A stretch of DNA of 64,000 nt from Lachnospiraceae bacterium. GTDB taxonomy: Bacteria; Bacillota; Clostridia; Lachnospirales; Lachnospiraceae. Positions 23,570-40,656 of this stretch are shown piece after piece (within the stretch, counting starts at the first letter, position 1; each line of letters starts with the position of its first letter). The position numbers were made by a program, and so were the translations under genes. The DNA lies in contig SVEQ01000012.1 in assembly GCA_015057325.1 (NCBI GenBank), positions 1-64,000 of the forward strand, read 5' to 3'. A model generated the notes under the pieces. It saw only the letters and a program-made list of their open reading frames with translations, did no database searches and was not told the DNA's origin.

Positions 23570-23716
23570 TCAATAAGATGTTAACCACAAAGTCCAGACA
23601 ATAAAAAAGATAAGGACTGTCAAAAAGCCCTTTCTTATTTTAGGTTTATCGTTTTTCTTCTTTTGAAATAACAGACCTTTGCTAATAATGTAATCCTTCT
23701 CAGTTCTATGCCACAT
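23570..23716 (-). CDS. Small single-TM protein (48 aa)
   Basis: ATG at 23716 follows AAAGGGATTACC and opens MWHRTEKDYIISKG..., a basic region, then a C-terminal hydrophobic segment FLTVLIFFIVWTLWL. The terminator at 23395-23418 would end its transcript. The upstream bases (23717-23790, LIDFVNDYVRIRAYY in the same frame) look like a coding remnant and resemble the tail next to the DUF4256 fragment. No function known. Confidence 0.4.
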   Translation of the reverse strand: MWHRTEKDYIISKGLLFQKKKNDKPKIRKGFLTVLIFFIVWTLWLTSY

Positions 23717-23822
23717 GGTAATCCCTTTAGTCGATTCTACTGAAATATAATATGCTCTTATTCTAACATAATCATTAACAAAATCAATAAGATTATGTAT
23801 AGTCAAAACGAGCGGAAGATGG

Positions 23823-23927
23823 GGTGCGCGAGGTCCAGTGGACCTCATGCTTGCGCACCGACCGAGCGGCATCCCCATGCCGCGAGACCTTGAACCCTTG
23901 GGTTCATGGCACGCATCGGCGTGCCAT
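23823..23927. repeat. GC-rich array of four perfect or near-perfect hairpins
   Basis: Four stem-loops follow each other: 23823-23859 (GGTGCGC/GCGCACC enclosing GAGGTCCA-G-TGGACCTC), 23866-23883 (GCGGCAT-CCCC-ATGCCGC), 23891-23906 (TGAACCC-TT-GGGTTCA) and 23906-23927 (ATGGCACGC-ATCG-GCGTGCCAT). The block is far richer in G+C than the surroundings and directly precedes the terminator and the partial tRNA end. It may be a REP-like or MITE-like element. Confidence 0.7.
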
Positions 23928-23970
23928 AAAGAAAAAAGACATGTGCTTTTGCACATGTCCTTTTTCTTTA
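23928..23970. terminator. Intrinsic terminator, probably the native tRNA-Leu terminator
   Basis: AAAGAAAAAA-GACATGTGC-TTTT-GCACATGTC-CTTTTTCTTT is an almost perfect palindrome with a T-run on either strand. It lies 5 bases below the partial tRNA-Leu end, where the terminator of an uninterrupted tRNA-Leu gene would be. Confidence 0.75.
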
Positions 23971-23974
23971 CGTT

Positions 23975-23997
23975 ATGCGGAAGATGGGACTTGAACC
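23975..23997. repeat. Left attachment-site core (partial tRNA-Leu 3' end)
   Basis: 23 bases identical to 40572-40594, covering discriminator, 3' acceptor strand and part of the T arm of tRNA-Leu. The sequence to its right does not continue as a tRNA, so this is a duplicated attachment core and not a second gene. Confidence 0.75.
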
Positions 23998-24066
23998 ACG
24001 AGCGCTTATAATATCAGCGTTTGAAGTATTTCTACCCCACTTCATACCACACACACTTCATTCATA

Positions 24067-25173
24067 CTAAATTACTATATGTAATTGACTCATAGCATCT
24101 GACATTGTATCATCTAACACATGACCGTAAAGTGACATCGTAATATTAAAATTACTATGCCCCAATAGCTCTTGCACTGTTCTGGGATTCATTCCATTTT
24201 CAATACATCTTGTAGCAAAAGTTGCTCGAAAAGCATGCATCGTAAAAGGCTCTATATTTATTAGTTTACATATACGTTTGATTTCCCTGTCAATCGGAGT
24301 TGCCATCAACAAACCACGTTCCGGAGCCTTAAATAAGCAATCATCAATCCGAAACTCATCACCATCAAGAATCTTATTTAACTCTATCTGTGAATCAAGT
24401 ACAGCTTGGATTTCCTGATTTATTGGAATTGTTCTTCTTCCTGCTTGTGTTTTTGCAGAATCTCCAATCTTGTATGCACCTGTTTCCGTTCTTGTGATTG
24501 TTCGCTCAATATGTATCTTGCCACCTTTTATATCGCTATTTCTTAACGCTCCAATTTCTCCAACCCTAGCACCTGTCAATATCGCAAATCTATACACGTT
24601 ATAGTATATACTATTTTGACATCGCTCACAAGCAAAGAAAATTTTTTGTTCTTCAATGGTCAATGCCCTATGGTATGTATCTCTTGCTTTCTCCTCGGTC
24701 CTTTTCAAATTCTTTATTGTAAGACAAGGATTATATTCAATAACTCGTTCGTTCAAGGCATCATTCATACAATGTTTAAAATGAGCCATATAATCATTAA
24801 CTGTTTGAGTTCTACGTGTTTTTGCTAATTCTTTTTGAACTACTCGCAAATCATCTACGCTGACATCCTTTATTTTCAATTCACCAAAAGACTTACTAGC
24901 AGATGCTATATATACACTTGAAATAGCTTCAAACATCTTTATTTGACCTCTGAGCGTAGATTCTTTAACACTGTCTCGTCTGCCTTCTGTCCACCTTTCA
25001 TAATATTCTTCGACGGTAGGTTTTTTTCTTACATTAAAACCTTTTTGTATTTCTTCACGTTTGGCTTTTTCTTTTAAAAATAATTCATTGGCATTCTTGC
25101 CATAAACATAATACCTTTTCCCGTCGATAGTAAAAGACTTTTTTAAGTATCCGTCTTTTCTTTTCCTCGGCAT
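24067..25173 (-). CDS. int: Tyrosine-type site-specific recombinase (integrase)
   Basis: Start at 25173 (MPRKRKDGYLKK) follows GGAAGGATGG; 368 residues. An N-terminal arm-binding region is followed by a SAM-like core-binding domain (about residues 55-155) and the catalytic domain with the expected residues: Arg in LTGARVGEI, the HxxR box HAFRATFATR, His in LLGHSNFN and the nucleophile Tyr in SLYGHV. The 3' end is 70 bases from the left attachment core. It would integrate and excise the 23975-40594 element at tRNA-Leu. Confidence 0.93.
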   Translation of the reverse strand: MPRKRKDGYLKKSFTIDGKRYYVYGKNANELFLKEKAKREEIQKGFNVRKKPTVEEYYERWTEGRRDSVKESTLRGQIKMFEAISSVYIASASKSFGELKIKDVSVDDLRVVQKELAKTRRTQTVNDYMAHFKHCMNDALNERVIEYNPCLTIKNLKRTEEKARDTYHRALTIEEQKIFFACERCQNSIYYNVYRFAILTGARVGEIGALRNSDIKGGKIHIERTITRTETGAYKIGDSAKTQAGRRTIPINQEIQAVLDSQIELNKILDGDEFRIDDCLFKAPERGLLMATPIDREIKRICKLINIEPFTMHAFRATFATRCIENGMNPRTVQELLGHSNFNITMSLYGHVLDDTMSDAMSQLHIVI

Positions 25174-25307
25174 TAGATTACACCATCCTTCCATTCTTTA
25201 CTAATGAAAAATGCTTATTTCTAATCATCTTCCATATATAAAAAGGATCTTTTAAAGGCATGCCTAATTAAGGAATACCTAATTATATTTTCATTTACTT
25301 CTAAAAG

Positions 25308-25505
25308 TCAACATAATTTTTCAACTGTATCAGTCAACTTTGAAATATTAATCCTCACGCAACGTCCAATACGTATAACGCAGTGATTTTCCTCCGCAAT
25401 TTTCAATAGTGAGTTTCTTGAAATTTTAAAATAATCCATAGCTTGTGCCACCGTTGCGAACTTATCGTCCTCGCTAATTTTTTTCGTATACATTGGATTG
25501 TTCAT
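25308..25505 (-). CDS. Excisionase-like / helix-turn-helix protein
   Basis: 65 residues with the small winged helix of Tn916-Xis/MerR-like excisionases (FATVAQAMDYFKISRNSLLK then IRIGRCVRINISKL). GGAGG lies 9 bases before the start. It precedes int in the same direction and probably directs excision. Its long leader (about 25510-25735) can fold into alternative hairpins, described separately. Confidence 0.75.
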   Translation of the reverse strand: MNNPMYTKKISEDDKFATVAQAMDYFKISRNSLLKIAEENHCVIRIGRCVRINISKLTDTVEKLC

Positions 25506-25517
25506 TTACTTGCCTCC

Positions 25518-25751
25518 TTAAAATGATTTTTTATAACACAATTTATTACAAAGCAATTCAGCTAACCCGCAAAATCTTTTCAGCACAGAATCACAACTTG
25601 GCATTGTTCCAAAACATGATTCTATGCTGAAAAACTTATTTTTAAGCAAGTATTTCAGCATAATAAAACATTCTGCAAGCAACCGTTGGGAAACGGTTCG
25701 CATTGGACTTTCACCAGCTTTCTCATATAGCACCCTATGGGTAAGTATCAT
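25518..25751 (-). CDS. Possible short frame overlapping the xis leader
   Basis: The frame of up to 77 codons, or 61 from MRTVSQRLLAECF at about 25703, runs through the hairpin region and stops 13 bases before xis. It could be a leader peptide, but the sequence is dominated by the RNA stems (for example SCFGTMPSCD lies in the main hairpin loop), so it may be noncoding. Low confidence. Confidence 0.25.
   Translation of the reverse strand: MILTHRVLYEKAGESPMRTVSQRLLAECFIMLKYLLKNKFFSIESCFGTMPSCDSVLKRFCGLAELLCNKLCYKKSF
25576..25698 (-). ncRNA. Structured leader with two mutually exclusive hairpins
   Basis: Read on the minus strand: a 7-bp stem at 25698-25681 (AACCGTT-TCCC-AACGGTT), then arm A (25662-25648), arm B (25637-25617) and arm C (25593-25576). 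A pairs with B over 14 of 15 positions around a 10-base loop; B also pairs with C over 17 of 18 positions (one G-U) around a 23-base loop. The two pairings cannot coexist. The stretch ends about 70 bases before the xis start. This is the design of an attenuator or riboswitch-like switch. Confidence 0.6.
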
Positions 25752-26158
25752 TATTACAGGACAGCATTATCGCACAGACACACCCATATATCTGTCTCCG
25801 GAACAAATATTAATCGCTCATACCTTTGCTTCAATGCCCGAATCAGCACTCCTTCGCTTTTCATTCCAAATAGGAACAGGTATATTGTGGCGTATTTGCC
25901 GGAAAGCTCAACTGCCCTTCACGTCTTACAGAATTTATGATATTCAATTATCAAAGTCCATATTTTATTGCATTGTGCTTACGGACGCATTATAAATCTC
26001 TCTGTTGTTATATAAATGCACCTTTGACACACATAGGCATATTTGCCCATAACAGCCTGCTTACCTTCGGAGCGTGAATTAGTATTGATGAAGCGAGGAA
26101 AGGATAAAATACTAATCACAAAAGATAAGCAAGCTCTTATCAACATACATACTTATAG
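25752..26158. other. Intergenic stretch inside the element
   Basis: Short frames exist on both strands but none has a good ribosome site or recognisable family. It contains the distal part of the xis leader/promoter region. I see no repeat or RNA gene here. Confidence 0.4.
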
Positions 26159-26530
26159 CTATTTTCTTAACCCTGACGGGTTTCCGTAAGCTCTTATGAG
26201 CTTCTCAACAGGCTTAATATATTCTTCCGGAACGACATCAAGTAATTCGTATAAAAGTTTATTCTCATCGCTTTTGAAGTGTGGACGTTGTGCATACCAA
26301 CCATCTGCAACCCTTATACCCTTACGATTCCTTATCAAAGGCACTTCAAAATCGTTTTCAAGAGAATCCAAGTCAACCTTTACAGATTGAGGAGTTATTC
26401 CGAATTCATTTTGAATCTCTTTATAATTCGTTATCCTTACTATTGAAAGCCAATACATCATTTCAACTCTACGACCTATAACACCTTTATCCCTTATGTT
26501 TCTTGTTTTCTTAGGCACTTCTCGTTTCAT
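26159..26530 (-). CDS. Winged-helix DNA-binding protein
   Basis: 123 residues; ATG follows AAAGGAGAAAAA. Residues 20-70 form a DeoR/HTH_11-type winged helix (EMMYWLSIVRITNYKEIQNE then GITPQSVKVDLDSLE). The C-terminal half is helical (KLLYELLDVVPEEYIKPVEKL). Such proteins are common as accessory regulators in Firmicutes elements. Target unknown. Confidence 0.65.
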   Translation of the reverse strand: MKREVPKKTRNIRDKGVIGRRVEMMYWLSIVRITNYKEIQNEFGITPQSVKVDLDSLENDFEVPLIRNRKGIRVADGWYAQRPHFKSDENKLLYELLDVVPEEYIKPVEKLIRAYGNPSGLRK

Positions 26531-26603
26531 TTTTTCTCCTTTGATTACTAAGATTATTCGGTTTCACTTTCATTTTTTGATGTGAAAAAAAATTTTTTGA
26601 AAA

Positions 26604-26644
26604 AATAAAAAAAAGAAGCCAGCAGAAAACCAATCCACTGACTT
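26604..26644 (-). terminator. Intrinsic terminator split from its gene by the IS insertion
   Basis: On the minus strand AGAAGTCAG ... CTGGCTTCT is followed by eight T. The IS3 element inserted directly upstream, so the gene this terminator served is no longer adjacent. Confidence 0.55.
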
Positions 26645-26709
26645 CTGAGGTGACCCCAAAAAGTTAGACTTTTATTGCGTAACAGATTTTGATATCTGTT
26701 ACGCATTTT

Positions 26710-27600
26710 TTATGCAGCCAAGAGACGAAGTCTGTATTGGACAGGACTTAGCCATCTCAGTTTCTCTTTAATTCTTTGTTCATTATAATACTTTATATAT
26801 CGCTCTATTTCTGATTTTAATTCCTCATAACTGTAATAAACAACACCATAATAGATTTCCTGTTTAAGTAATCCAAAGAAGTTTTCCATGATTGAGTTAT
26901 CAAGACAGTTCCCTTTTCTAGACATACTTTGAAATATTCGTTCTTCTTTTAACCTGTGTGAGTATGCTTTCATCTGGTAAGCCCAGCCTTGATCAGAATG
27001 AAACGTTCTTCTGTATGGACAGTCTGAAGTGATTTCAATAGCTTTTTCCAAAGCATCCATTACATTCTTGGCAGAAGGTTTAGTATCTATCCCATAACTG
27101 AGTATTTCTCCATTACACATATCCATAAAAGGATCCAGGTAAAGCTTGTGCATTGTCATGTGACCTTTAGCATCAATCTCATAGTACTTAAACTCTGTAG
27201 TATCAGTAGTAATCTTTTGATGAGGGATATGCGTATTAAAGCGTCTTTTTATACGATTAGGCGCTACCGTACCAACTTTACCCTTATAAGAACTGTATTT
27301 CCTGCTTTTTCGGGTATAGGATGTCACCTGTAATCCAAGTTTTTGAACTATTCTCTGAACTTTCTTTTTGTTGATGGTATATCCTTGATTTCGAAGTTCT
27401 CCAAGTATTCTACGATATCCATAATCCTTATTATCAGTACGAATTTCTTGAATTTTTTTTTTCGATTTCTCTGTCAGGATTTTCTCTATCAAATCTCTTT
27501 TGCCAATACATATACGTTGCTTTGGGCATACCAATATAAGAGAGAAGGTCTTTTAGTCTAAACTCTCCCCGGAGGCTGTTGATGACGAGTGCCGTTCTCT
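26710..27600 (-). pseudogene. IS3-family transposase orfB (DDE), frameshifted
   Basis: The DDE core is complete: TTDTTEFKYYEID, then FHSDQGWAYQ and the Glu region NSIMENFFGLLKQEIYY. The frame from 27534 down to 26710 is open, but the expected N-terminal part (ALVINSLRGEFRLKDLLSYI, then YMYWQKRFDRENPDREIE) lies in another frame between about 27600 and 27463. The switch happens at a run of ten T at 27453-27462 (A10 on the coding strand). Either the gene is broken, or the run allows slippage, or it is a base-calling error. Confidence 0.75.
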
Positions 27601-28128
27601 CATTTTTGCCTCGTCCTCTAAACGCAGCCTCCTCAGTTCTTTTAAAAAAGCGTTCTCTATTCTTAACTTAAGGAGTTCATCCTCTAATTCCTTTACATGT
27701 TCAGCACTGGTATCAACAACTCTTTCTTCAATTTTCTGAGGTTTTGGGGATATCTTAGATTTATCCAATGTTCTCGTCCGACCTTTCTTACGAGATTTCA
27801 AAGCCTCTGGACCAGCAACACGAAAACGACTAACCCATGCAGCAATCAAGCTTGGATTAGTTATGCCTTCTTGAATAGCCAGCTCTTGATATGAAATCTC
27901 GTTTGTTAGATATAACTCTACCACAGAAAGTTTCTTTTCAAAAGAATACTTTTTCTGTTGACGAGACCTCATTAAACCTTCATCGCCAAAGGACTGGTAG
28001 TTATTGACCCATTTTTGTATATCTTTTTTATGTGGACCATAGACGGATGAAAGATACTTGTAGCCTCCTTCACCTCTTAAATAGGCATCAACAATTTTTT
28101 TCTTAAACTCGTAGCTGTACCTAGCCAT
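27553..28128 (-). CDS. IS3-family orfA (helix-turn-helix)
   Basis: Start at 28128 (MARYSYEFKKKIVDAY) follows GGAGG. 191 residues with two helix-turn-helix units (the second YLTNEISYQELAIQEGIT) and a C-terminal coiled coil (HVKELEDELLKLRIENAFLK) as in IS150-type OrfA. It overlaps the orfB reading frame near GGCAAAAATGAG, the expected place for a programmed -1 shift. Confidence 0.85.
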   Translation of the reverse strand: MARYSYEFKKKIVDAYLRGEGGYKYLSSVYGPHKKDIQKWVNNYQSFGDEGLMRSRQQKKYSFEKKLSVVELYLTNEISYQELAIQEGITNPSLIAAWVSRFRVAGPEALKSRKKGRTRTLDKSKISPKPQKIEERVVDTSAEHVKELEDELLKLRIENAFLKELRRLRLEDEAKMRERHSSSTASGESLD

Positions 28129-28434
28129 AAAAATACCGACCTCCAATCGTTAGATTTTAGGTCTAACTTTTGGGGGTCGGTACATTCTTGACTTCTTTTT
28201 AAGTATGTTATTTAATTCACAACAATAATAATATTGTTGAAAAAGAATTTTATCTTTTTATTTCATAACTGAAAGCGAAAACAATCTCGACCTAATTGAA
28301 ATGCCTAGTTATAGAGCCTCTCATCTTTTATAATCCATAATCATCTTAAAAATCAGAAAACTGACCAAATCAGGACATCTTATAATCCCTGCCACTCTGA
28401 TCAATCATTTATATGAAATTGAAATAATAATGTA

Positions 28435-28468
28435 AGAAAAAGGGAACTGCTCAACTTAAACAGTTCCC
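28435..28468 (-). terminator. Intrinsic terminator of the HU gene
   Basis: On the minus strand GGGAACTG-(11)-CAGTTCCC is followed by TTTTTCTT, directly after the HU stop codon region. The stretch 28188-28434 between the IS end and this site holds no gene I can support. Confidence 0.7.
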
Positions 28469-28490
28469 ATAATATAAAGAGGGCTTATCC

Positions 28491-28787
28491 CTATTTCTTC
28501 TTTTTACCTTTGCCTGCGTTAACAGCGTCCTTAAGTGCTTTACCAGCCTTGAACTTAGGTGCAACAGACTTCTTAATCTTAATTGTCTCTCCTGTTGCCG
28601 GATTGCGTCCCTCTCTGGCAGCTCTTTCAGCGGTTGTAAATGTTCCAAATCCGATAAGCTGAACAGAACCTTTCTTCTTCAAGGTATCTGTTGTAATCTC
28701 AATAAAAGCATTCAATGCTTTCTCTGTATCTTTCTTAGATAACTCAGCTTGTTCTGCTATAGCAGCAACTAACTCTGTCTTGTTCAT
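28491..28787 (-). CDS. HU-family DNA-binding protein
   Basis: Start at 28787 (MNKTELVAAIAE) follows AGGAGGACTTATACA; 98 residues. The sequence is a normal HU: helical dimer base, then GFGTFTTAERAAREGRNPAT with the DNA-contacting arm and RNPATGE motif, and a Lys-rich tail (GKGKKKK). HU compacts and bends DNA. Its presence inside the tRNA-Leu element suggests a second, element-borne copy, which cannot be checked from this window. Confidence 0.92.
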   Translation of the reverse strand: MNKTELVAAIAEQAELSKKDTEKALNAFIEITTDTLKKKGSVQLIGFGTFTTAERAAREGRNPATGETIKIKKSVAPKFKAGKALKDAVNAGKGKKKK

Positions 28788-29019
28788 TGTATAAGTCCTC
28801 CTCTGAAATATTGTCAGCATATACATACCAACAATTACTTACATAGTTATTATACTATATATTGAAGCATTATACAACCTTTTATACAATATGCTGTTAA
28901 ATGAATATAAAACTACTTAAAAAACACCGATACCGCCATATCACCTGTCAGACAGATTATATATCACGATATCGGTGTTTCTATATGTTAGGATATGAAA
29001 TGAAGAATCTTATTTAATT

Positions 29020-32000
29020 CTATTTAATCTTAACCTTCTTAGAAAGTCCTTTCTTTCTGAACAGCTTTGTATACGCCTTCTTCATCTTCTTAGGCACCTT
29101 GATTGTTACCTTTTTGCCTACGCCCTTAAATGCATTCTTTGCTACAGTCTTAGATTCAAGTATGGTTGTCTTGACTATGATTGTCTTTAACTTCTTACAG
29201 CCCTTGAATAGATTAGAACCAAGCTTTCTTACATTTGCAGGAATAGTTACCTTGGTAAGTGCCGGACAATTCGCAAATGCGTTGTTACCAATCTCTGTTA
29301 CCTTAGAGCCTATCGTTACGCTCTTTAACTTCTTACATCCTTCAAATGCACTTGCTCCGATCTTAGTAACACCATTTCCGATCTTGATGCCTGTCAGAGA
29401 AGTACATCCCTTAAATGCCTTATCACTGATTTCAATAACATTCGCAGGAATAGTAACTGATTTTAACCTCGTACATCCTGAGAATGCTCCGTTGCCGATT
29501 GATTTAATGTTACTGCTTAATACCACTTTCTCAATCTTCTTATTCTTAGCAAATGCGTTGTCAGCGATTTTTGTTATTTTATAAGTGACACCATTTATCG
29601 TTACTGAATCCGGAATAATCACTTTCTTATCAGTTATACTTTCCGAAGCCTTATATTCTACCGCAGGCTCTTCACCTGTATCAGATATTACGGTATATAA
29701 TGCCTTTGTGCTTGCATCTTCAAGTGTAACACCCTTTGCAGCAGGTGTAGTTGTAGTTTCAACAGGTGTTGTCGTATCCTGTGGCTTATCTGCCGGCTTG
29801 TCGCTTGGGTTATCTACCGGATTGTCACTCGGTTTATCCGCAGGCTTATCACTTTGTTTATCAAGCTTTGGAATATCTGCAACATCCTTTGTCTGAGTGG
29901 TAAACAATGCATTCTTAAATGTTGCCGTATAGGTTGTAGTTCCCATCTTCTCTGTGGTTGCTGCTTCTTTCACCTTAGAAGTTACAACCGCATTCTCAGT
30001 AACCTTATGTCCCTCGCTACTTTCAGTACAACCATCTCTCTTACAGATTACCGTTGCAGTACATGTCTTTCCATCGTCAGACCATTTATATTCAGGTGTA
30101 CCATAATCATGTCCTGTTGCTGAATGTTCATTATCATTTACCGTTTGTTTATAACCACAAACCCTACAGGTACGCGTTTTAGTTCCATTTTCTTCACAAG
30201 TTACATCATTATTATAGATGTAGTCATTGAAGTGATGACACGCCTCTATATCTGAATCATCAGCTTCATCCCAAACAGCTATCATCTCTACATCTGTTTG
30301 AATCGAATATTCAGCCCCAGCCTGATACAGTGATTCGCCATCCGACCAACCTTTAAACTTATAACCATCTCGCTCAAACTCCTGATCCGGAAGATTTATC
30401 ACTTCTGATATATTTCCTAATATCATTTCCGGCAATTCACCTATTATATCATCATCACCGACAAAAGAAATCGTACATGCGGTCAATTCAGCATTTTTAT
30501 TTACTTTGTTAACATAAAAGTCTGCTACATTCTGTATCTTATCTTTTTCGACTACTGTAGAATCCAAAACCAGACAGCACTTGAGCACATCCTGCCCATC
30601 TTCCAAATCCAATTCATCAGAATTAATTACTATACAGATATTCTGTATTTCACCACTCTTCAATTCCTCAACATCTATAGTTTTTAGAAGTTTACCATCT
30701 TCACTACCTTCATGCAATTCCACTTTGCCAGCAGTATCAAGAACCCCATTATTAACGATATTTACAGAATATGCATGAACATGTCCATAAGAATAGTATT
30801 CTCCATCACTAAAATCCAAATTAGCATATCCTATTTTTATTTCTTCTTCGTTATCTGATAACTTATAGTCGGCTGCTTCAATCGGGAGTACTTTGACAGT
30901 ATATTCTTTTTCTTGTCCAATTGCTTCGGGCAAAGAAAATGCTTCATCAACATCACAAATACCACCTGGAACAATTACATTTACGCTCTCTTTTTCATCA
31001 ATTATTGTTTCACCATCCAATAATTGAACTTTAACTCCAGAGACAAATGTCTCTCCCTTGTTACAACAGCTAACTATTACATTCAATTTGTTCCCATCAT
31101 CTGTAATTTTATAATCATCATATACTATATTATCTATTGCAATATCAGTATCAGGAGTAAATACAGCATATCTCAAATCTGAATTAATAACATATTCGTC
31201 ATCTGACATTGTAATTTCATTATCAGCAACTACAACCTCAAAATCGTCATTATTATTAACGTCTGTACCATAGTTTTTTACATATGCCCCTTCATCTGAA
31301 ATCCTTGTACTTTCACTCCACATATTCCTCTGCTTGTCATAAATATAAGCAGTCAAATAATCATCAGTTAATTCCTCTCCTACTTCTTGTGTCAGATATG
31401 TCACATACAGATATTTTTCGCTCTCACATATTTGATACGCCCCATTGATTGCTGCATTTTCTTCAATCAACGGTCTTGGAAGATCATCAATGTTATCCAT
31501 TTGATATAACACTGCGTTTTGGCTCCAAATCAATTTGTCTTTACCCATAATCTTTGCATATTTTGCATATGAAATTGAGTCTTCACCATTAATAGTATGT
31601 AACAATTGTCCATCTAAATCACATATGTTAAGATTCCTATCATTAACAGTCAGATAGTCCCCATCTTGATCATTAATATAAGCAAAACATTCATTGTTTC
31701 CTATCTTGCCTGCCATAGTTTCCAGCACATTACTTTCTTGATTAATGAGCGTTTTTTCTTGAGATAATCCACCCTCATTATATTTTACAAATTTTACCGA
31801 ATTACTATCATCATTGCAAAGAAGATTATTGTTATGATTATTAATCCATGTCATATATACATTATTATCTTGCAACGTAATTGAAGGTGCATAATCCATT
31901 TCTCCGTTATCAGTATTAAATAATATATCAAATTTATCATTATCCTTATTATATTTTGCTAACACAACCTCTGTAGCCGCAGCACTTGATTCCATAGTCA

Positions 32001-35000
32001 AATTCTCAGAATCCATAACAGATTTCAGATTCACCCATGCCAAGTAAATATTATGAGAATCATGAGCAACTATTGGATAATAGTCACATGTCCCATCATC
32101 AAATACTGCTTTCGATTCACTCCATGTTTCAGTAGAATTATTATATATTGAGTATGCAATCATATTCTGGTTAATATCAGTTCTTGAAGAATTCTTTAAA
32201 GTATATATAGCCATTTTTAAATTGCCGCTATTTACAATAAATACTTTTGATTCAGAATCTATATCATTGCAAACCATTCCACCATCATCATGCACACTTA
32301 GTGCTCTTGTCATTATATTCTTAACTTCATCATTATCAATTATCCAATATGGTTTACTTTCATTATCCAATGTATAATAATTGGGATTCATAATTTTACT
32401 TCTATAATTTATGCTACCAGTTGTTTTCTCAGTTTCATACAAATGAAATTTTTTCTTAGCAATTGTCAACCTAGTCTTCCAAAATAATAGTTTTGCTGTT
32501 ACACCGCCAGAAACAGTTAAATCAGTATTAACTTCAGGTGAAAAATTATGTTTTCTTACTTCCTCCCATTTCCAGTCCATAGTTGTACCGATTGTTGCAT
32601 TTAGATCTACTACAACATAACCCAAATCTCCAACACCTGGACCTGTACCTACAGTCAACCCTAATTCAGACTTAACTTTTCCAGTTAATTCGGTATTTTC
32701 CGAAATATCTGATAAATGTTTAAACTTTGCGGTAGTTTTCACTTCTCCTTCAATATTACCTTTCAAATCGATAGTAAACACCATTGGTACCCCGGCTAAT
32801 GTATAAGGTATGCAAGAACCTACTTCAGATTTTACTACTACAACCATCGAACCAGAAACCTCATGTTCTTCTCCAGTAAAATCACCTTCCAAGTATCCCC
32901 ATATATCCACTTTTACAGAAGCCTTACTCTTTCCCTTTCCTACTGCAAATGCATCTTTCGTAAACCAATTACCACGTTGTTCAAGAAAGTCGTTCAATTC
33001 CTTTGATGAACTAATATTGTAGATATTATCATTATTATCTGTTCTTCCAGCATATTCAGTATTATTTTTAAATTTATTCCATTGTTCATCAGTAAAATAA
33101 TGAGAAAACTTATCTTCCCCATCCGAATTTTTAGCTGAACCATTAAAGTAGTTAATTCCAATTTTAATGGTTCCATCTTTTATGGATGTTTGAATTGGCA
33201 AATCTTCCCAACCAGAAATAGAAAAAGACTGTCCTCCAATAACAGGAATATTATTAGGCACACTAAATGTCACATCACTACCTAAATCTATTCCAATTCC
33301 ATCTGTTCCTTTATTGATAATTAAATTAGTTAATTCCCACTCCCCTCTAGTGCCATCACTTGCTATTGCTCTTACATATACATAATTACCAGCAGAAAAT
33401 TTACTTACTGGTATCGTGGATTCTTCGCCGACTTTGTATGTTCCTATTATCTTTGATTTAGGGATATTGGAAGCATCATATTCAGTTTGTGCAACCATAT
33501 ATGAGGTAATTCTCAAATTGTCACTGTTCGCTTCCCAAGTAGCACTTAGTTTTATATTCTTATCACTTGTTGTGTCAACATACTTATGCTTTCCTGACAA
33601 AACATCAACCGTTTGCGTATATGTACCATTATTATTTTGTGTTCTAACATTTAATGAAGATAATCCTATTCCCCAAGAGTATGGTTCCAGTTTTATCGGG
33701 ATAATCTTACCTCCACCTTTCTTCACATCTAAAGAAAATGTTGCTGCATTATATCCTTCTTTTGTAAAATAAAAATTATGTGTACCATTAAAGCTGTCTG
33801 TTGCATTTATGCTAAATCCAGTATTTTTTCCTGTTACATTTCTATTTTGTTCGTTATCTTTCCACCATACTATATCAGTTAAATTTTCACCTGTTTCTCC
33901 ATCCATTACAAGAAATAGATAGGTATCTTTATCTGATGTTATTGTACTAACTTCAACGCCTCCCTCTAAATGCGAAGTTTTTTTCCCATTATTAGAAGAA
34001 ATTGTTCCTGCATATTTAATTAAATTCAATGATGCTTTGGAAATAAAAATTGCAGGTCTAACAGTCAAATAACCATCCACAAGAAGACCCTCATTATCGA
34101 GTTCTCCTTCTTCCCATACACTAACACAATTTTTGTTGTCTTCGCCTGGTGTACGAGCGACCCATCCAGTTACACCTATAGGATCGATATAGTAATCAAT
34201 ATGGTCAGGTTCATAATATGCCCCCATCGCTTTCGTGTAGGAAGAACTAAAACATCTTCGTCCTTCATCTTCAATAGATTTATCATTTGTAAAACCATAC
34301 TTTTTATTTGTCAAATCGTCTTCAGACAAATAAAACACTCTATCTACAGTGTTTTGTCCTGCATCAGTGCCAAAGTCTCTATTGTTGTTATTGGTAATAT
34401 TTATAGCTTTAATTAATTGTTTTTCTTCATCATCAAAAGCCGAATCATAAAAATTGAATTTACTTGAATAATTAATCCCTTCGTTATTTTTATCACTCCC
34501 ATAACCATTTAAAAAGCTTCTAATTGTTGAAGTTTCCCATGTAACTCCGCATCTCTCTTCATTATATCTTTGAGAATCAAGCACCTTATCTGATAGCAAA
34601 AAATACCCTTCATCTTCTACTGAAATAACTCTCCATTTTATCGGCTCATAAAGGAAATAGTGATAATCAGAAGCATTATTCCAATAATAATAACCATCAT
34701 AGTTGTATCCGCTTCTTCTTGTAACCGTAAAAGTAGCATCATATTTTTTTATTCTTCTATATTTTTTACCCTCATAAACAATGTTCCCATTTTGATCCCA
34801 ACCATTTGCATTTTTCAATGCATTATACAATTGAGGATTCTCCACCAAATCACCATCTACCAATACCCTTTCAACAATACCGTCATAATCTGACTTTGAT
34901 GGAACCACTTCCGCTTGAGGATAAGTTCCAAACCATACACAATCCCAAGTAACCACTTGTCCTGATAACATATCATCATTTTTAGTAATACGCGGATTTT

Positions 35001-35088
35001 GTAATGTTTTATCTTTTGCGATAACTTCTGTTTGAATTAAAAATGTAGAGATTAATATCAATATAAATAATACTTTTATTTTTTTCAT
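29020..35088 (-). CDS. Giant BspA-like surface protein with LRR_5 repeats
   Basis: Start at 35088 (MKKIKVLFILIL) with GGGAG upstream; 2022 residues. Domains in order: signal peptide; a DUF6273-type module (WFGTYPQAEV ... EPIKWRVISVEDEGYFLLSD, to about residue 350); a long beta-rich middle; an InlB_B-type repeat (LPDQEFERDGYKFKGWSDGE) near residue 1600; a Cys/His module (CHHFNDYIY ... CRVCGY); a Pro/Thr/Asp-rich linker (about 1740-1775); and BspA-type leucine-rich repeats to the end (GNGAFSGCTRLKSVTIPANV pattern, about 7 units). No sortase motif is seen. Probably an adhesin or host/polymer-binding protein. Confidence 0.88.
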   Translation of the reverse strand: MKKIKVLFILILISTFLIQTEVIAKDKTLQNPRITKNDDMLSGQVVTWDCVWFGTYPQAEVVPSKSDYDGIVERVLVDGDLVENPQLYNALKNANGWDQNGNIVYEGKKYRRIKKYDATFTVTRRSGYNYDGYYYWNNASDYHYFLYEPIKWRVISVEDEGYFLLSDKVLDSQRYNEERCGVTWETSTIRSFLNGYGSDKNNEGINYSSKFNFYDSAFDDEEKQLIKAINITNNNNRDFGTDAGQNTVDRVFYLSEDDLTNKKYGFTNDKSIEDEGRRCFSSSYTKAMGAYYEPDHIDYYIDPIGVTGWVARTPGEDNKNCVSVWEEGELDNEGLLVDGYLTVRPAIFISKASLNLIKYAGTISSNNGKKTSHLEGGVEVSTITSDKDTYLFLVMDGETGENLTDIVWWKDNEQNRNVTGKNTGFSINATDSFNGTHNFYFTKEGYNAATFSLDVKKGGGKIIPIKLEPYSWGIGLSSLNVRTQNNNGTYTQTVDVLSGKHKYVDTTSDKNIKLSATWEANSDNLRITSYMVAQTEYDASNIPKSKIIGTYKVGEESTIPVSKFSAGNYVYVRAIASDGTRGEWELTNLIINKGTDGIGIDLGSDVTFSVPNNIPVIGGQSFSISGWEDLPIQTSIKDGTIKIGINYFNGSAKNSDGEDKFSHYFTDEQWNKFKNNTEYAGRTDNNDNIYNISSSKELNDFLEQRGNWFTKDAFAVGKGKSKASVKVDIWGYLEGDFTGEEHEVSGSMVVVVKSEVGSCIPYTLAGVPMVFTIDLKGNIEGEVKTTAKFKHLSDISENTELTGKVKSELGLTVGTGPGVGDLGYVVVDLNATIGTTMDWKWEEVRKHNFSPEVNTDLTVSGGVTAKLLFWKTRLTIAKKKFHLYETEKTTGSINYRSKIMNPNYYTLDNESKPYWIIDNDEVKNIMTRALSVHDDGGMVCNDIDSESKVFIVNSGNLKMAIYTLKNSSRTDINQNMIAYSIYNNSTETWSESKAVFDDGTCDYYPIVAHDSHNIYLAWVNLKSVMDSENLTMESSAAATEVVLAKYNKDNDKFDILFNTDNGEMDYAPSITLQDNNVYMTWINNHNNNLLCNDDSNSVKFVKYNEGGLSQEKTLINQESNVLETMAGKIGNNECFAYINDQDGDYLTVNDRNLNICDLDGQLLHTINGEDSISYAKYAKIMGKDKLIWSQNAVLYQMDNIDDLPRPLIEENAAINGAYQICESEKYLYVTYLTQEVGEELTDDYLTAYIYDKQRNMWSESTRISDEGAYVKNYGTDVNNNDDFEVVVADNEITMSDDEYVINSDLRYAVFTPDTDIAIDNIVYDDYKITDDGNKLNVIVSCCNKGETFVSGVKVQLLDGETIIDEKESVNVIVPGGICDVDEAFSLPEAIGQEKEYTVKVLPIEAADYKLSDNEEEIKIGYANLDFSDGEYYSYGHVHAYSVNIVNNGVLDTAGKVELHEGSEDGKLLKTIDVEELKSGEIQNICIVINSDELDLEDGQDVLKCCLVLDSTVVEKDKIQNVADFYVNKVNKNAELTACTISFVGDDDIIGELPEMILGNISEVINLPDQEFERDGYKFKGWSDGESLYQAGAEYSIQTDVEMIAVWDEADDSDIEACHHFNDYIYNNDVTCEENGTKTRTCRVCGYKQTVNDNEHSATGHDYGTPEYKWSDDGKTCTATVICKRDGCTESSEGHKVTENAVVTSKVKEAATTEKMGTTTYTATFKNALFTTQTKDVADIPKLDKQSDKPADKPSDNPVDNPSDKPADKPQDTTTPVETTTTPAAKGVTLEDASTKALYTVISDTGEEPAVEYKASESITDKKVIIPDSVTINGVTYKITKIADNAFAKNKKIEKVVLSSNIKSIGNGAFSGCTRLKSVTIPANVIEISDKAFKGCTSLTGIKIGNGVTKIGASAFEGCKKLKSVTIGSKVTEIGNNAFANCPALTKVTIPANVRKLGSNLFKGCKKLKTIIVKTTILESKTVAKNAFKGVGKKVTIKVPKKMKKAYTKLFRKKGLSKKVKIK

Positions 35089-35215
35089 TATAAACACTCC
35101 CGTCCTATATCAATATTATTAATAATATGCATCAAAGCATCTTGTCTTACATCAGTATTATTCTGCTTATCACTTGAATTATCCGGTTTCTCTTCAACAT
35201 TATCCTGCTTATCAT
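35089..35215 (-). pseudogene. Fragment of a repeat linker like that of the neighbouring InlB-like protein
   Basis: The minus strand reads YDKQDNVEEKPDNSSDKQN and continues to a stop next to the start of the 2022-residue gene. It has no start codon. The DKQDN-type composition matches the 14-residue repeats of the protein encoded at 35269-37947, so it may be the tail of a duplicated and deleted copy. Confidence 0.4.
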
Positions 35216-35222
35216 ATACATC

Positions 35223-35254
35223 AAAACTCCCCATCTAAAGATGGGAAGTTTTGA
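35223..35254. terminator. Strong hairpin after the InlB-like gene
   Basis: AAAACTCCCCATCT-AA-AGATGGGAAGTTTT pairs along nearly its whole length. It lies 15 bases below the stop of the minus-strand surface-protein gene. T-runs are short, so it may end transcription weakly or stabilise the mRNA end. Confidence 0.5.
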
Positions 35255-35268
35255 CTCACTAATCTCAA

Positions 35269-37947
35269 TTACCTTTTAATCTTAACCTTCTTTACTTTAC
35301 TCCATTTACCATAATACTTATTATCATTTGTATCAGTATTATATGCTCGTACTCTTACATAATAAGTCTTGCCAACTTTTAATTTTTTCGCAGATAACGT
35401 AAGCTTCGTTGTCAGCTTATTTTTCTTACTTTTGGTAAATTTCTTATTTACCGCATACTGTACTTCATATCCTTTACAATCTTTAACCTTCTTCCAAACA
35501 ATTTTAATTGCTTTACTCTTGTTATTTTTTACTGAAGCAATTTTAACCTTGCCAGGAGTAACAACCTTCACTTCATTATCACTATTCGTTTTAGCATTTG
35601 AATTATCAGCTATAGCAGAACCCTTATCAGTTGATTGTCCGGTCGTATTATTAGTACTGTTATTAGATTGATTATTATCTTTGTTTTTATCATCTACAGT
35701 ACCATTGTTATTTGGGTCTGTTGCAGGTTCCTGCTTATCTGTCGGTATAGTCTGCTTATTACCGTCATCACCCTTATTAATATCAGTATTATCCTGCCTG
35801 TCGCCGGATTCTTCCTGTTTGCTATCAGGATTATCCTGCTTATCGCCAGACTCTTCCTGTTTACTATCAGGGTCATCCTGCTGGTCACCAGACTCTTCCT
35901 GTTTACCCTCAGGGTTATCTTGCTTATCGCCAGACTCTTCCTGTTTACTATCAGGGTCATCCTGCTGGTCACCGGATTCTTCTTGCTTACCGTCCGGATT
36001 GCCTTGTTCGTCATCAGGATCATTCTGTTGTTGCTCTGAATCTGCTTTTTCAAATTTTGCTACAACTGTAATATCCGCTTTAGCATCAAATACATAAACT
36101 AATTCATCAGATAACAAATCGCCCTCCTGACTGAACCATCCAATAAACTTTCCATCTTCTTTGCACTCAGCAGTAAGTGTAACTGATGTATCAGCTTTAT
36201 AAGCTCCTTCACCTGTTGCCGCTCCCGCCGAAGCATTATTTTGGGTTGCCAATATATCGCCATCATTGATTATAATATCTACATTTCCAGCATCATAACC
36301 ACCAATACCGGTTCCACCATACGCATGTACAATTCCACCATTAATTAAAATACGTATGTCAGACTTGTCTTGATCAATTGATGTTTTACTCATCTTTCCA
36401 ACGCCAATTCCTGTACTCCCTTTTCCCGTACCCCTTGCTTCAACGTAACCGCCGTTGATGACAATGGTTCCGCTTTTGCTTTGATAACCTTCTCCTATAA
36501 CCGCAGTCCCTCCGCTATCACTTTCGGCGACAACCTTTCCACTATTGATTGTAATAATACCAAATCCGTATTCGGAACATCCGCCTATTACCGCAACTGT
36601 ATAATTCGTCGAATTGGGCTTACTCTTCGTTGACACTTGTATGTCGCCGCCGTTGATAGTGATGTCACCTGCATCATTTTTAGGATTTGCGCCGATTGCT
36701 GCATAAAATTTACTACTAGATGTGAAAGAGGTTTGGTCACTGACTATGCTGATTTTACCCTTACTGTTACCCATTGATTGAGCATATATTGTCAGAGAAT
36801 TACCCGCATTGACGGCAATACCTTTTTCGGAAGATAGTGTTGCACCATCACAGAGGATCAGGTGTATATTACCACGCACCTCAACACGATTGTTCATGGT
36901 GATGCCACTCTTTACAACATACCATGTATCTTTTCCTTCTGTACCCCATTCTTGTTCAGTACCTTTTACTGCCGTTGCAGAAGCGCAGACCTTGCAAGAA
37001 CCGTCAGCATCAAGATAGATAACTGCCCCTTCTTTTATACTGACAGTGATGACGATATCCCTGCTAACATTATTTGTCGTCCATCCGTTTTCACCACTTA
37101 AAAAAGTAACACCGTTTGAACCGGAAACAGTATAAGTTTCAGTGGGCACATTAACTGCGACGCACAAATTTGCACCAACGGGATAACTCAATCCCGTGCC
37201 GCTTAGAGTATCGTTCAAAAACTGATTACTATATGTCCATGTAACAATGACATTTTCACTACCGATATTTTCAGCTTCTATCGTCGCTGTACATGCAGAT
37301 ATCCAGACTGCTTTCAGTGAAATATTGCTTTCAACATCGCTGATTTTAATCTTGTTTTTCACGGCAGAACCAGGATGATAGACCTTTGTTTCGTCGTCGA
37401 TTACCTGCCAGTGACTAAATACCTTCCCACTTGGTGCGACAAAATCGCATTCAGGCACCGTATAGACATAGTTACCTGCACTGCCATCAACAGCAACCGT
37501 GTCCATCTTACCACTGCCCCCATTTGCATCAAAGCTCACAGTTGGATTCGTCCTAGTCCACTCTGCATAAACATTTATGTTCTCATTTGGAATATAATCA
37601 AATGTAAATGCATTTCCATTTTCCATCTTCCATCCAGAAAATGCATAGCCTGTTCTGCTAGGAGATTCAAGAGAGGATATACTTCTACCTTTTGCAACCT
37701 TCTTAGTGGCATAGATATCAGTTTTTGAGGAATCCATATAGAAAGTCACAGTATAAACGATTTCTGCATCTTTCCATAGAGCCTTAAAAGTATTGTTTCC
37801 TGTCATCGACAATACTGCTTGTTCTCCTGGCATATAACGGGCCCATTTTTTTGTTACCGTTTCATCCTGCACGACATTTTCTTCTCTAGCCCATGCATCA
37901 AATTCCATACCATCAGGCGGAGTAAATAAGCAATCGGGAAGCATCAC
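35269..37947 (-). pseudogene. InlB/beta-helix surface protein, main part downstream of an in-frame stop
   Basis: 892 codons that continue in the same frame as the signal-peptide frame 37963-38190, separated only by one TAA. Without it the protein would be about 974 residues. Order: InlB_B-type repeats (YAFSGWKMENGNAFTF, SFDANGGSGKMDTVAV), a right-handed beta-helix region (INGGDIQVST, INSGKVVAESDSGG, INGGYVEARGTGKG), an acidic linker of 14-residue repeats (QEESGDKQDNP), and a C-terminal fibronectin-like domain (IKIVWKKVKDCKGYEVQYAV). As it stands this part has no signal peptide and would not be exported. Confidence 0.75.
35787..36008 (-). repeat. 42-bp tandem repeats (14-residue units)
   Basis: About five units of 42 bp, coding D(Q/K)QD(D/N)P(D/E)(S/G)KQEESG. 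The units alternate between two slightly different versions, which points to growth by duplication of pairs. Copy number could vary between strains. Confidence 0.8.
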
Positions 37948-37962
37948 TTTCTTACTGCTACA

Positions 37963-38190
37963 TTACACCGTGCTTCCATCCATTGTCCCAAAGCCACCAT
38001 TGGCATCAAAAGAGATTACAAAAGTTTCATCATCACCAACTACAAATGGAAGACCAACTACAGATGGAAGAAACTCTTCATCTTCTGCTCGTACAGAGCT
38101 TCTACTGAGCGGAAGCAACACCGCACCTAACACCATTATTATTGTCAAAATGATAATCTGTATTCCCTTTTTTAATATTCGTTTCTTCAT
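37963..38190 (-). pseudogene. Signal-peptide part of the InlB-like surface protein
   Basis: 75 codons from ATG at 38190: a signal peptide (MKKRILKKGIQIIILTIIM, cleavage near SVRA/EDEE), then the first InlB-type strand FVISFDANGGFGTMDGST, then TAA at 37963-37965. The same frame continues past the stop (CSSKKVMLPDCLFTPPDG) into the 892-codon part. A single substitution explains the break. Confidence 0.75.
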
Positions 38191-39013
38191 AAATTCTTCA
38201 TCCTTCTCCTTATTTGTTGGCACTTTCCTCCGCGCCTCTACTTCCCGTTTTGATTTCGTGTTATTCCAAATGGAAATCGTTACCTCCCTTCCGTTAAAAA
38301 TCTGTGAAGAACCGTGGTTCTCATCTCATATATCATCCTGCCTGAGCAGATTCTTTACTCCTACATATAAACACGATAATAATATTATATTATAGCAAAA
38401 TCATAGGATGATTTCAACGGATTTTACAGGAATTCTTGTGCCAGAAAGGTATATGTCCCCCCTTTACCATAAACTTATAATTTTAGCGAAATGGTGTATT
38501 ATCTTTTATCTCTTCCTTCTTTGGCTCTGCCGTTATTCTTTTTCCTGCTTCTTTCATCATTTCAGCCCCTCATAATATAATCTTATCTTCTTAGTCATGT
38601 GAAATATACATACTCATCAATTTTCTTGTTAACTCTGATAGCTTCACTGTCAAACGGATTATTCTTTTCCTTAATACATTTCAATTTCTTTCCTACTGAA
38701 AATGGTGTAAGTCCGTAATAATAATCCATTCCCGTAATCGTAACATACATTTTCTTCATAATGATCGCTTCCCCTCAAAATATAATTCTTGATAATATAA
38801 TTTTACCAAATACCTTGTCCCTTAAAAATGCCACCCTTAACCCATTGTAAATCTTGCATTTTTATAAAAATCTCACGTTGCAATCGAACATTATTTCTGT
38901 TATAATCACTTCATAAATCTCTGAAACGAACTGTTGTTATCAACGGGATAAGTGCGTCCTTTGATACCGACAGTTTTTCTATTTTTGCAACTATCCCAAA
39001 ATACCAAAAAACT
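38191..39013. other. Intergenic stretch with promoter region and remnants
   Basis: Besides the HIRAN fragment at 38595-38759 it holds a possible 25-codon minus-strand frame at 38483-38560 (MMKEAGKRITAEPKKEE, with GAGGGG before it). I see no other gene. AT-rich runs near 38375-38400 may hold the promoter of the surface-protein gene. Confidence 0.4.
38595..38759 (-). pseudogene. Truncated HIRAN-domain protein
   Basis: 54 codons from ATG at 38759, preceded by GAGGGGAAGCG. The sequence MKKMYVTITGMDYYYGLTPF ... KEKNNPFDSEAIRV is the N-terminal half of a stand-alone HIRAN protein (normally about 90-100 residues, linked to DNA repair and replication). It stops after DEYVYFT, so the C-terminal half is lost. 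Confidence 0.6.
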
Positions 39014-39892
39014 TTATAGAGTGATCCGGTGGAAACGCCGAGTGAGGTGTAAGCTCGTCAATCCAAATTGACACACCACCAAAATGCCCTTTTGGGCATT
39101 TTGAAATACAGCAAGCACCTCCTCTGTCAATTCACCATATGCTTCTGCAACTTTTCCCTTCGGATCGTGCTTATAAATACTGACACCTTTTGTTGTCGCT
39201 TCCACTGCCCTAATTGAGAACGGAATCCTGCTGTTGTATATGTTAATTGCTTTTCCGTAAGCATCATCAAGCAGTTCAACAATCTCTCTCGCATAAACAG
39301 TCCTCTTGTCGAGCATTGTTATCAATACACCGTCAATTCCAAGTTGATTATTAAGATTTCTTCTTACTCTGCTTATCGTCTTAATTAACTGTTCAAGACC
39401 TTTTACCGAAAGATATGCAGCCTGTACCGGAATAATGATTTTGTCTGCTGCCACAAGCACATTTATTGTGATAAGACCTAGACTTGGTGCTGAATCTATG
39501 ATTATGTAATCGTAATTATCCTTTACTTTGTCTATATATCTTTTCAATATAGTTTCTCTACTCATTGCTTGTATCAGCGCAACCTCCACTGCTGCCAATT
39601 CAATATTTGATGGTACTAAGTCAACTCCTTCATCGTGATGTAATATACCAAATATATTTGAATCATATTCTTCATCTTGGATTTCCTTTTCCATTATTAC
39701 AGCTAACGTATCATTCATGCTATCAGGCTCCTTATATCCAAGACTTGCAGTTAAAGAGCCTTGTGCGTCTGCGTCCACAAGCAAAACCTTATACCCTTTC
39801 TTTGCTAAACCGATACCTAAACTGCCTGCTGTTGTTGTCTTGGCTACTCCACCTTTCTGTGAAGCTGTCACATATACTTTACACATATTCAT
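39014..39892 (-). CDS. ParA-family ATPase with altered C-terminus
   Basis: 292 residues. Deviant Walker A KGGVAKTTT, Walker A' LLVDADAQGS and Walker B YIIIDSAPSLGLIT are intact, and DNA-binding residues near the end (IRAVEATTKGVSIYKHDP) are present. After AYGELTEEVLA the usual short basic end is replaced by about 30 unrelated residues encoded by a hairpin (39080-39103) and beyond. No ParB follows. It may stabilise the element, but the missing partner and changed end make this doubtful. Confidence 0.82.
   Translation of the reverse strand: MNMCKVYVTASQKGGVAKTTTAGSLGIGLAKKGYKVLLVDADAQGSLTASLGYKEPDSMNDTLAVIMEKEIQDEEYDSNIFGILHHDEGVDLVPSNIELAAVEVALIQAMSRETILKRYIDKVKDNYDYIIIDSAPSLGLITINVLVAADKIIIPVQAAYLSVKGLEQLIKTISRVRRNLNNQLGIDGVLITMLDKRTVYAREIVELLDDAYGKAINIYNSRIPFSIRAVEATTKGVSIYKHDPKGKVAEAYGELTEEVLAVFQNAQKGILVVCQFGLTSLHLTRRFHRITL
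39080..39103. repeat. Perfect 24-bp hairpin inside the 3' end of parA
   Basis: CAAAATGCCC-TTTT-GGGCATTTTG is a perfect 10-bp stem. It sits exactly where the ParA sequence stops resembling its family, so it may have been a terminator that deletion fused into the reading frame. Confidence 0.6.
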
Positions 39893-39917
39893 CTACCTGC
39901 CTTTCCGCTGTATTTAA

Positions 39918-40178
39918 CTACTGTTTCTTCTTATATCCGAACACCGTTCCGGTCCCGAAGTATCTGTTTTTTATATCCTTTTTATACTTTTCCTTAACAT
40001 ACTTTGTCATTGGTTCATCAAGTCTGAATATCTCGGAATATATCCTTTTGTACTTTGCACTGCTTGAAATATCCATTATTTCTGACGGTTTATTCATCTT
40101 AAACCGATCATCTTTTTTTAGCATTTTGATAAACCACTTAATATCATTGGTAGTGCCTTGCAATCTGATCTTTAACAT
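39918..40178 (-). CDS. Small ParA-associated protein (DUF3970-like)
   Basis: 86 residues beginning MLKIRLQGTTNDIKWFIKML, which resembles DUF3970-type proteins that lie next to parA genes in Firmicutes elements. The C-terminal half is basic (YVKEKYKKDIKNRYFG). The start follows GGAGGTAATG closely. It precedes parA by 25 bases in the same direction. Function unknown. Confidence 0.6.
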   Translation of the reverse strand: MLKIRLQGTTNDIKWFIKMLKKDDRFKMNKPSEIMDISSSAKYKRIYSEIFRLDEPMTKYVKEKYKKDIKNRYFGTGTVFGYKKKQ

Positions 40179-40532
40179 TCATTACCTCCAATCTGTCGGA
40201 AGATTAATATATGCGTATCACCCTACCGATATAAAAATCCCCTTTGTTCTTCATAAACCTCTTTCTTATTATTTTCCTTAAATAGCATGCCTCGCCTAAA
40301 TTGGCTATAGATCCAGTTATAATAACGTATAATTTGTTAGTAATACCCCACAAAAATGAATATAGCTATACCATAAATTTATTTAACCATTGTAAATACT
40401 GGGGATTTCTACCTCTTTTTATACCCCATTTTATACCCCACATTGTTTGGAATTTAATGAATTAGAAGATACATTCAAGACACTTGATGAAAGAAGTGTA
40501 TGTTCTGAAAGCATTGATTTTACAAAGAAAAA
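40179..40532. other. Right end of the integrated element, no gene recognised
   Basis: AT-rich sequence with a run TATACCCCATTTTATACCCCAC near 40418-40441. A plus-strand frame at 40447-40629 runs into the tRNA gene and is not believable. The promoter of the ParA pair is probably near 40190-40330. Confidence 0.4.
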
Positions 40533-40562
40533 TAGCACTCCATCATATTTGATGAAGTGCTA
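40533..40562 (-). terminator. Intrinsic terminator downstream of tRNA-Leu
   Basis: On the minus strand TAGCACTTCATCA-AATA-TGATGGAGTGCTA (one mismatch) is followed by TTTTTCTTT. It lies inside the integrated element and so replaces the native terminator now found at 23928-23970. Confidence 0.75.
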
Positions 40563-40572
40563 TAATAATAGA

Positions 40573-40656
40573 TGCGGAAGATGGGACTTGAACCCACACG
40601 TCATTTCTGACACTAGATCCTTAGTCTAGCCTGTCTGCCAATTCCAGCACTTCCGC
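40573..40656 (-). tRNA. tRNA-Leu (anticodon AAG)
   Basis: An 84-base class II tRNA: acceptor GCGGAAG/CTTCCGC, D loop AATTGGCAGAC, anticodon arm CTAGA-CTAAGGA-TCTAG with anticodon AAG, long variable arm TGTCA-GAAA-TGACG, T loop TTCAAGT, discriminator A. CCA is not encoded. Its 3' end serves as the attachment site of the element to its left. A34 would need conversion to inosine to read CUU and CUC. Confidence 0.92.

Follow-up and report, generated by a model that had tools for sequence, protein, structure and literature searches.

Excision genes and leader of a probable tRNA-Leu element

The DNA analysed here (the window) is a 64-kb stretch from a Lachnospiraceae bacterium. On its minus strand, an excisionase-like gene (xis; 25308..25505) encodes a 65-aa protein assigned by Pfam to DUF6462, with HTH_17 below its own cut-off. 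As a first-pass annotation of this DNA had proposed, an integrase gene follows; it encodes a 375-aa tyrosine integrase (int; 24067..25194, minus strand, Pfam). Upstream of the leader described below, and on the same strand, we found a small protein gene (26159..26530) that looks HTH-like by eye and is shared, by sequence and blastn, with L191, the contig carrying the related locus L069. Its product had no match in Pfam or NCBIfam.

A repeat of 23 bp occurs in two identical copies, both read on the minus strand. One, a probable attachment-site copy, lies behind int (23975..23997); the other (40572..40594) coincides with the 3' end of a tRNA-Leu(aag) gene (40573-40656) and adjoins rplT and infC. 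From these positions, 23975-40594 is probably a 16.6-kb element in tRNA-Leu, with int and xis at one end. The cargo comprises int, xis, an HU gene and a ParA-like gene, as well as two large surface-type proteins (BspA-type LRR; Flg_new repeats). An IS3-type insertion sequence with two frames (26710-28146) separates the HU gene from the HTH-like gene and interrupts the match to L191. Behind the attachment repeat, the 414 bp at 23584-23997 share 99 % identity with a contig from a second species of the genus. Parts of this stretch also recur at several places in the genus and are perhaps tRNA-end remnants of other insertions. One relative of the integrase, at 61 % identity and without a visible pemK leader, was found in the genome contigs and none in the viral contigs. 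A query with Xis gave no match in the viral contigs, and no phage record resembled 25300-26000.

A pemK RNA within a longer conserved leader

The 55 nt directly 5' of the block singled out by the first-pass annotation match the pemK RNA (Rfam RF02913), a match which that annotation had missed. The core of this RNA (25700..25754, minus strand) scored 36.2 bits with the RF02913 covariance model, narrowly above the gathering score of 34.8. Apart from one tRNA, it was the only gathering-level Rfam match in the window, and no other Rfam family reached its own gathering score in the leader. The earlier remark that no described RNA class of this shape was known at this place is not supported, since RF02913 sits immediately upstream of the block and the hairpin of 7 bp noted there is part of the extended pemK RNA. 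The match is marginal for the subtype carrying the three-arm module described below: L069 scored 31.3 bits, below the cut-off, and L033, the other relative with this module, does not reach it either. Because the margin is narrow and both relatives fall below the cut-off, the shared blocks are a better argument for identity than the score. Both the AUAAUGAUACUU and the GGUGaaA..CC blocks of the motif are present in the leader.

The own genome contains a single pemK RNA copy. At E <= 0.001, the RNA was detected in 43 of 144 genomes including this one (40 over the cut-off) and in none of the 14 control genomes; the own genus accounted for matches in 8 of its 26 genomes, six of them over the cut-off. 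The RNA is placed 5' of xis/int and on the sense strand of both genes, a cis-regulatory position. The name-giving toxin gene pemK, which the model does not require, is not found behind this leader, where xis/int stands instead.

The pemK RNA was reportedly described by Weinberg et al. in 2017. Passages in other papers list RF02913 among the families improved in Rfam 15, with three further covarying pairs (PMC11701678), note that the Rfam and ZWD alignments of the RNA differ (PMC7657543), name it among RNAs near defence genes (PMC11061315) and use it as a test family (PMC11507696). In the excerpt of a paper on C. difficile elements, the word 'leader' did not occur (PMC3158075). Our literature search brought up no functional study of the pemK RNA among the matches listed; the recombinase association and the boxA may already have been published. 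Among the matches listed, pemK did not appear in the orphan-riboswitch literature, nor was there anything on boxA in integrative elements or on such a leader.

Recombinase genes are frequent behind pemK RNAs. With the Rfam model (E <= 0.001, a few loci below the cut-off), 74 loci had at least 1 kb of downstream sequence, and in 58 of them a recombinase started within 1.4 kb downstream (31 serine, 27 tyrosine). A PemK gene was downstream in 10 of the 74, nine of which also had a recombinase. A wider set of 104 loci was made up of pemK loci, five of ten viral-contig DUF6870 loci and the plasmid pMG2200; a serine-recombinase frame started within the same distance in 46 of them and a tyrosine-integrase frame in 36 (82 in total, no locus with both). 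Some of these 104 loci had been found through a recombinase-associated gene, and the Rfam-model subset is given separately above. Recombinase clusters were built by single-linkage BLAST and named by Pfam on representatives. Where 1.3 kb was available to either side of the RNA (43 loci), a search with these recombinases matched downstream in 37 and upstream in none, the upstream zero being the informative part since the queries come from the same loci. Six loci (L002, L004, L007, L063, L102 and L104) carry ParA-like genes in place of recombinases. Among the viral-contig DUF6870 relatives, a pemK-like leader was recognised by eye in 9 of 10 (L142-L144, L146-L151), the sequence of the tenth locus being incomplete; these nine also have in common a segment around GCGCGAGCTGCAAATATGC, and a long hairpin of nested form precedes the Shine-Dalgarno sequence (SD).

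In the Enterococcus faecalis plasmid pMG2200, a pemK RNA (57.8 bits) lies between an HTH gene and an excisionase-integrase pair, much as in the window. This element is presumably of the Tn1549 type. Its leader differs from ours in having a 98-nt form of the RNA and no recognisable three-arm module, and its best boxA match has nine mismatches.

We also compared sequences on both sides of the core. The Rfam model covers 61 positions, and three parts of the leader, namely the S1 hairpin, the boxA-like element and the three-arm module, all lie outside it. A perfect 7-bp hairpin had been reported at 25698-25681, and this was accurate: AACCGTT (25698-25692) faces AACGGTT (25687-25681) in seven Watson-Crick pairs. 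We oriented 98 pemK loci and could recognise the motif end and a best hairpin in 95 (three loci were dropped). These hairpins differ in sequence between loci. After removal of near-duplicates, a hairpin of at least four Watson-Crick pairs was present at this place in 69 of 82 distinct loci (10.1 expected), and one of at least five pairs in 52 of 82 (2.9 expected). By this comparison of loci, the 7-bp hairpin is S1 (25681..25698, minus strand), which regularly extends the pemK RNA at its 3' side. Pairing of the S1 loop with sequence farther downstream, as a pseudoknot behind S1, looked convincing by eye in L033, L035 and L064 and was rejected, as it was no better than with permuted partners: the observed mean was reached in 715 of 2000 permutations for 82 loci and in 164 of 2000 for a 19-locus subgroup.

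Behind S1 lies a U-rich stretch (TGTTTTATT, 25662..25670, minus strand). Stretches with at least six T in 8 nt occurred in 30 of 89 loci within the first 30 nt after S1 and in 20 of 89 within the next 30, with 3, 6, 8 and 4 of 89 in later 30-nt bins. Such U-rich stretches would be in keeping with a checkpoint that resembles a terminator and is read through with the help of boxA; S1 and its U-rich stretch are terminator-like at most.

In rRNA leaders, boxA signals antitermination. A boxA-like element, TGGACTTTGATAATTGAATA (25941..25960, minus strand), begins 206 nt upstream of the pemK core; it has two mismatches to a consensus that was itself drawn from the upstream regions of this set of pemK loci. 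The core pattern CYTTGAHAAYTGAATA has one exact match in the own genome, which is this element. A sequence with up to four mismatches to TGTWCYTTGAMAAYTGAATA was found in the upstream stretch (-300 to -90) of 63 of the 87 distinct loci with enough flank, out of 99, compared with 0 of 87 for a downstream stretch and 1 of 87 for shuffled upstream sequence. Both the consensus and the stretch had been picked with these loci in view, so that it is the controls, not the count alone, that carry weight. The remaining 24 loci, including the pMG2200 copy, failed this test.

No 16S gene was found in the own genome's assembly, and six relatives were therefore taken for the rRNA boxA. The best boxA match lay 158-196 nt before 16S, with three to five mismatches, in 9 of 12 loci from five of the six genomes. 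The resemblance to the rRNA boxA is suggestive only, since all nine loci contain a closer match to the consensus elsewhere. What the two kinds of leader have in common is a boxA-like sequence before a long untranslated structured RNA; the leader described here, known from its sequence, differs in preceding a protein-coding excision operon. The interval between boxA and the pemK core (25755..25940, minus strand) carries conserved blocks throughout in a MAFFT alignment of 21 loci, picked for a recognisable boxA or close kinship.

A three-arm module between the pemK RNA and xis

The first-pass annotation had placed three complementary arms on the minus strand, and on re-examination their positions proved right: arm A at 25648..25662, arm B at 25617..25637 and arm C at 25576..25593. 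A (25662-25648) pairs with B (25637-25623) in 14 of 15 positions, all Watson-Crick, as claimed. B (25634-25617) and C (25593-25576) form 16 Watson-Crick and two G-U pairs of 18, in place of the 17 of 18 given before. Both pairings use arm B and hence exclude each other. The start codon of xis opens at 25505, a distance of 71 nt from the end of C, in agreement with the 70 or so estimated earlier.

To judge this arrangement against chance, we made 2000 dinucleotide shuffles of 25510-25760, with G-U pairs and one mismatch allowed. A 15-nt stem like A:B appeared in 428 shuffles, an 18-nt stem like B:C in 43, and both with a common arm B in two. Scanned in 250-nt windows (step 125, both strands), the 64 kb yielded the three-arm arrangement in 1 of 1020 windows, the leader site itself. 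Under a Watson-Crick-only rule, an A:B-like stem was found in 1 of 2000 shuffles; the observed leader fails this rule for B:C because of its two G-U pairs. A looser rule (both stems at least 13) was passed by 197 of 3000 shuffles, and the unusual feature is therefore the length of both stems. The predicted fold of 25735-25560 had a z-score of -4.8.

Besides the window, the module was found in L069, from the same genus, and in L033, from the same family. These three loci represent effectively two lineages, the arms of the window and L069 being identical. Between these two, 0 of 54 arm positions differ against 12 of 125 in the rest (Fisher p = 0.019). Against L033, with gaps scored as differences, 12 of 54 arm positions differ compared with 43 of 125 in the rest, which is not significant (p = 0.12). 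The A:B stem of L033 shows double changes in two pairs (A-U to G-C and U-A to C-G) and changes on one side in two more, and one cell is gapped. In its B:C stem, one pair has changed on both sides (A-U to U-A) and two on one side only, and 2 of 18 cells are broken. The expectation of compensating changes in homologues was thus borne out in part: the module is kept in two relatives and some changes compensate, but in L033 only. With effectively two lineages, we consider the support from compensating changes modest.

A model of the leader (R1), searched against 397 genomes of the family, matched at full length in the window's genome and in G215 only; a search of 195 relatives of G215 added partial matches and no further full-length one. 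In other pemK loci, arm A was looked for by eye among the matches listed. Seven viral-contig loci had a serine recombinase related to that of L069; upstream sequence was available for four, none of which matched R1. Five matches of a 17-base hairpin-region pattern in viral contigs were set aside as chance on inspection.

The genes behind the module vary. In L069, a DUF6870 gene and then a serine recombinase follow. The L033 module is followed by a gene whose product shares 68 % identity with the L069 DUF6870 protein, and by a frame reading as a serine recombinase. By blastn, one match between the window and L191 (80.6 %) begins at 26646 and stops exactly at 25576, where arm C ends; a second (82.6 %) covers 28261-28900, beyond the IS3-type insertion. 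Behind arm C no match is left: the window has its tyrosine module, and L191 has DUF6870 and three serine-recombinase-like frames, the first checked by Pfam and the others by reading.

This boundary invites another explanation, in which the A/B/C repeats act as DNA, either as sites for Xis, Int or the HTH-like protein or as a hot spot for exchange of recombinase modules, and RNA pairing is a by-product. It would account for homology that ends at the last base of arm C with different recombinase modules behind, and also for the long near-palindromes or hairpins that 26 of 89 distinct loci have in the interval from S1 to the first gene (p <= 0.01). In a palindromic site, however, arm A and its mutually exclusive pairing would not be needed, the element's probable attachment site lies away from here, at tRNA-Leu, and S1 and the U-rich stretches suit RNA. 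We regard a role as DNA as unlikely, if still the strongest of the competing explanations. A recurrent long hairpin with a 3' arm like TCATTRGCAGATAA, situated between S1 and a small Xis-like gene, was also seen in L030, L067, L131, L136, L137, L167, L175 and L176.

Less probable again is a translational switch, in which the choice between A:B and B:C would set access to the SD beside arm C, as in the relatives, and the window would have inherited the module with a new gene. Indeed, the SD begins within a few bases of arm C in both L069 and L033, with no U-tract there. In the window, however, the SD of xis (AAGGAGG, 25513..25519, minus strand) is 57 nt beyond arm C, and its predicted accessibility differs little between the two states, with no clear masking; in L069 it is also similar in both states except for the first SD bases.

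A classical attenuator, with B:C as intrinsic terminator and A:B as antiterminator, seems more doubtful still. The geometry of three arms with two exclusive pairings is that of trp-type or other intrinsic-terminator attenuators. Moreover, A:B would form first and B:C is predicted to be the more stable local stem (-16.1 vs -31.2 kcal/mol); folds of 25754-25470 with either stem enforced lie about 2 kcal/mol apart (-70.2 for A:B vs -72.3 for B:C). Against this, there is no U-tract after C, our scan rule returned no terminator-like site in 25450-26250, so that neither state offers a terminator hairpin with U-tract, and L069 and L033 have an SD, not U, right after arm C.

Leader-peptide control of the trp kind through the 77-aa frame at 25518-25751, which the first-pass annotation had considered, is hardly credible: the frame is open from an AUG within the conserved AUAAUGAUACUU, but this AUG has no SD before it by eye, 48 codons compared with L069 show eight nonsynonymous against one synonymous difference, and the frame is shorter in L069. 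The leader has no conserved translated short frame.

A putative antiterminated recombinase leader

Of the original proposal of a switching leader in front of xis/int, the structured leader and its two competing stems are retained, and the supposed novelty of the class and the leader-peptide control are not. Read from sequence comparison, the order of the leader is a boxA-like element, a conserved 5' domain of about 185 nt, the pemK core, S1 with the U-rich stretch and the A/B/C module. We favour, at about even confidence, an untranslated, structured and probably antiterminated RNA that would gate the excision operon of the probable tRNA-Leu element.

Such a leader might work as follows. RNA polymerase would be modified at boxA, as in rRNA leaders, and would then pass the long untranslated structured stretch. 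The pemK/S1 region may serve as a checkpoint for some signal, and the choice between A:B and B:C as a second decision right before the first gene. By default, expression of xis/int would be low, with a burst upon a signal or readthrough. Pausing, processing, Rho and translation are candidate routes from A:B or B:C to expression.

More tentatively, and with rather more doubt than confidence, we propose that the pemK RNA is the core of a 'recombinase leader' of about 300-450 nt common to mobile elements of these Gram-positive bacteria, whether they use serine or tyrosine recombinases. An rRNA-like boxA would load an antitermination complex and pemK/S1 would act as checkpoint. The output would be adapted by 3' modules that can be exchanged, A/B/C being one of them, with recombinase genes being swapped behind the conserved RNA.

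To our knowledge, little is known about how integrated elements are silenced and released in such bacteria. The pemK RNA family gains from this work a consistent association with recombinase and excisionase genes, which extends to the excisionase of an element on an Enterococcus plasmid. Its architecture is larger than the Rfam model, and the hypothesis of antitermination can be tested. In the element described here, an extra pair of competing hairpins beside the pemK RNA could tune the timing of excision.
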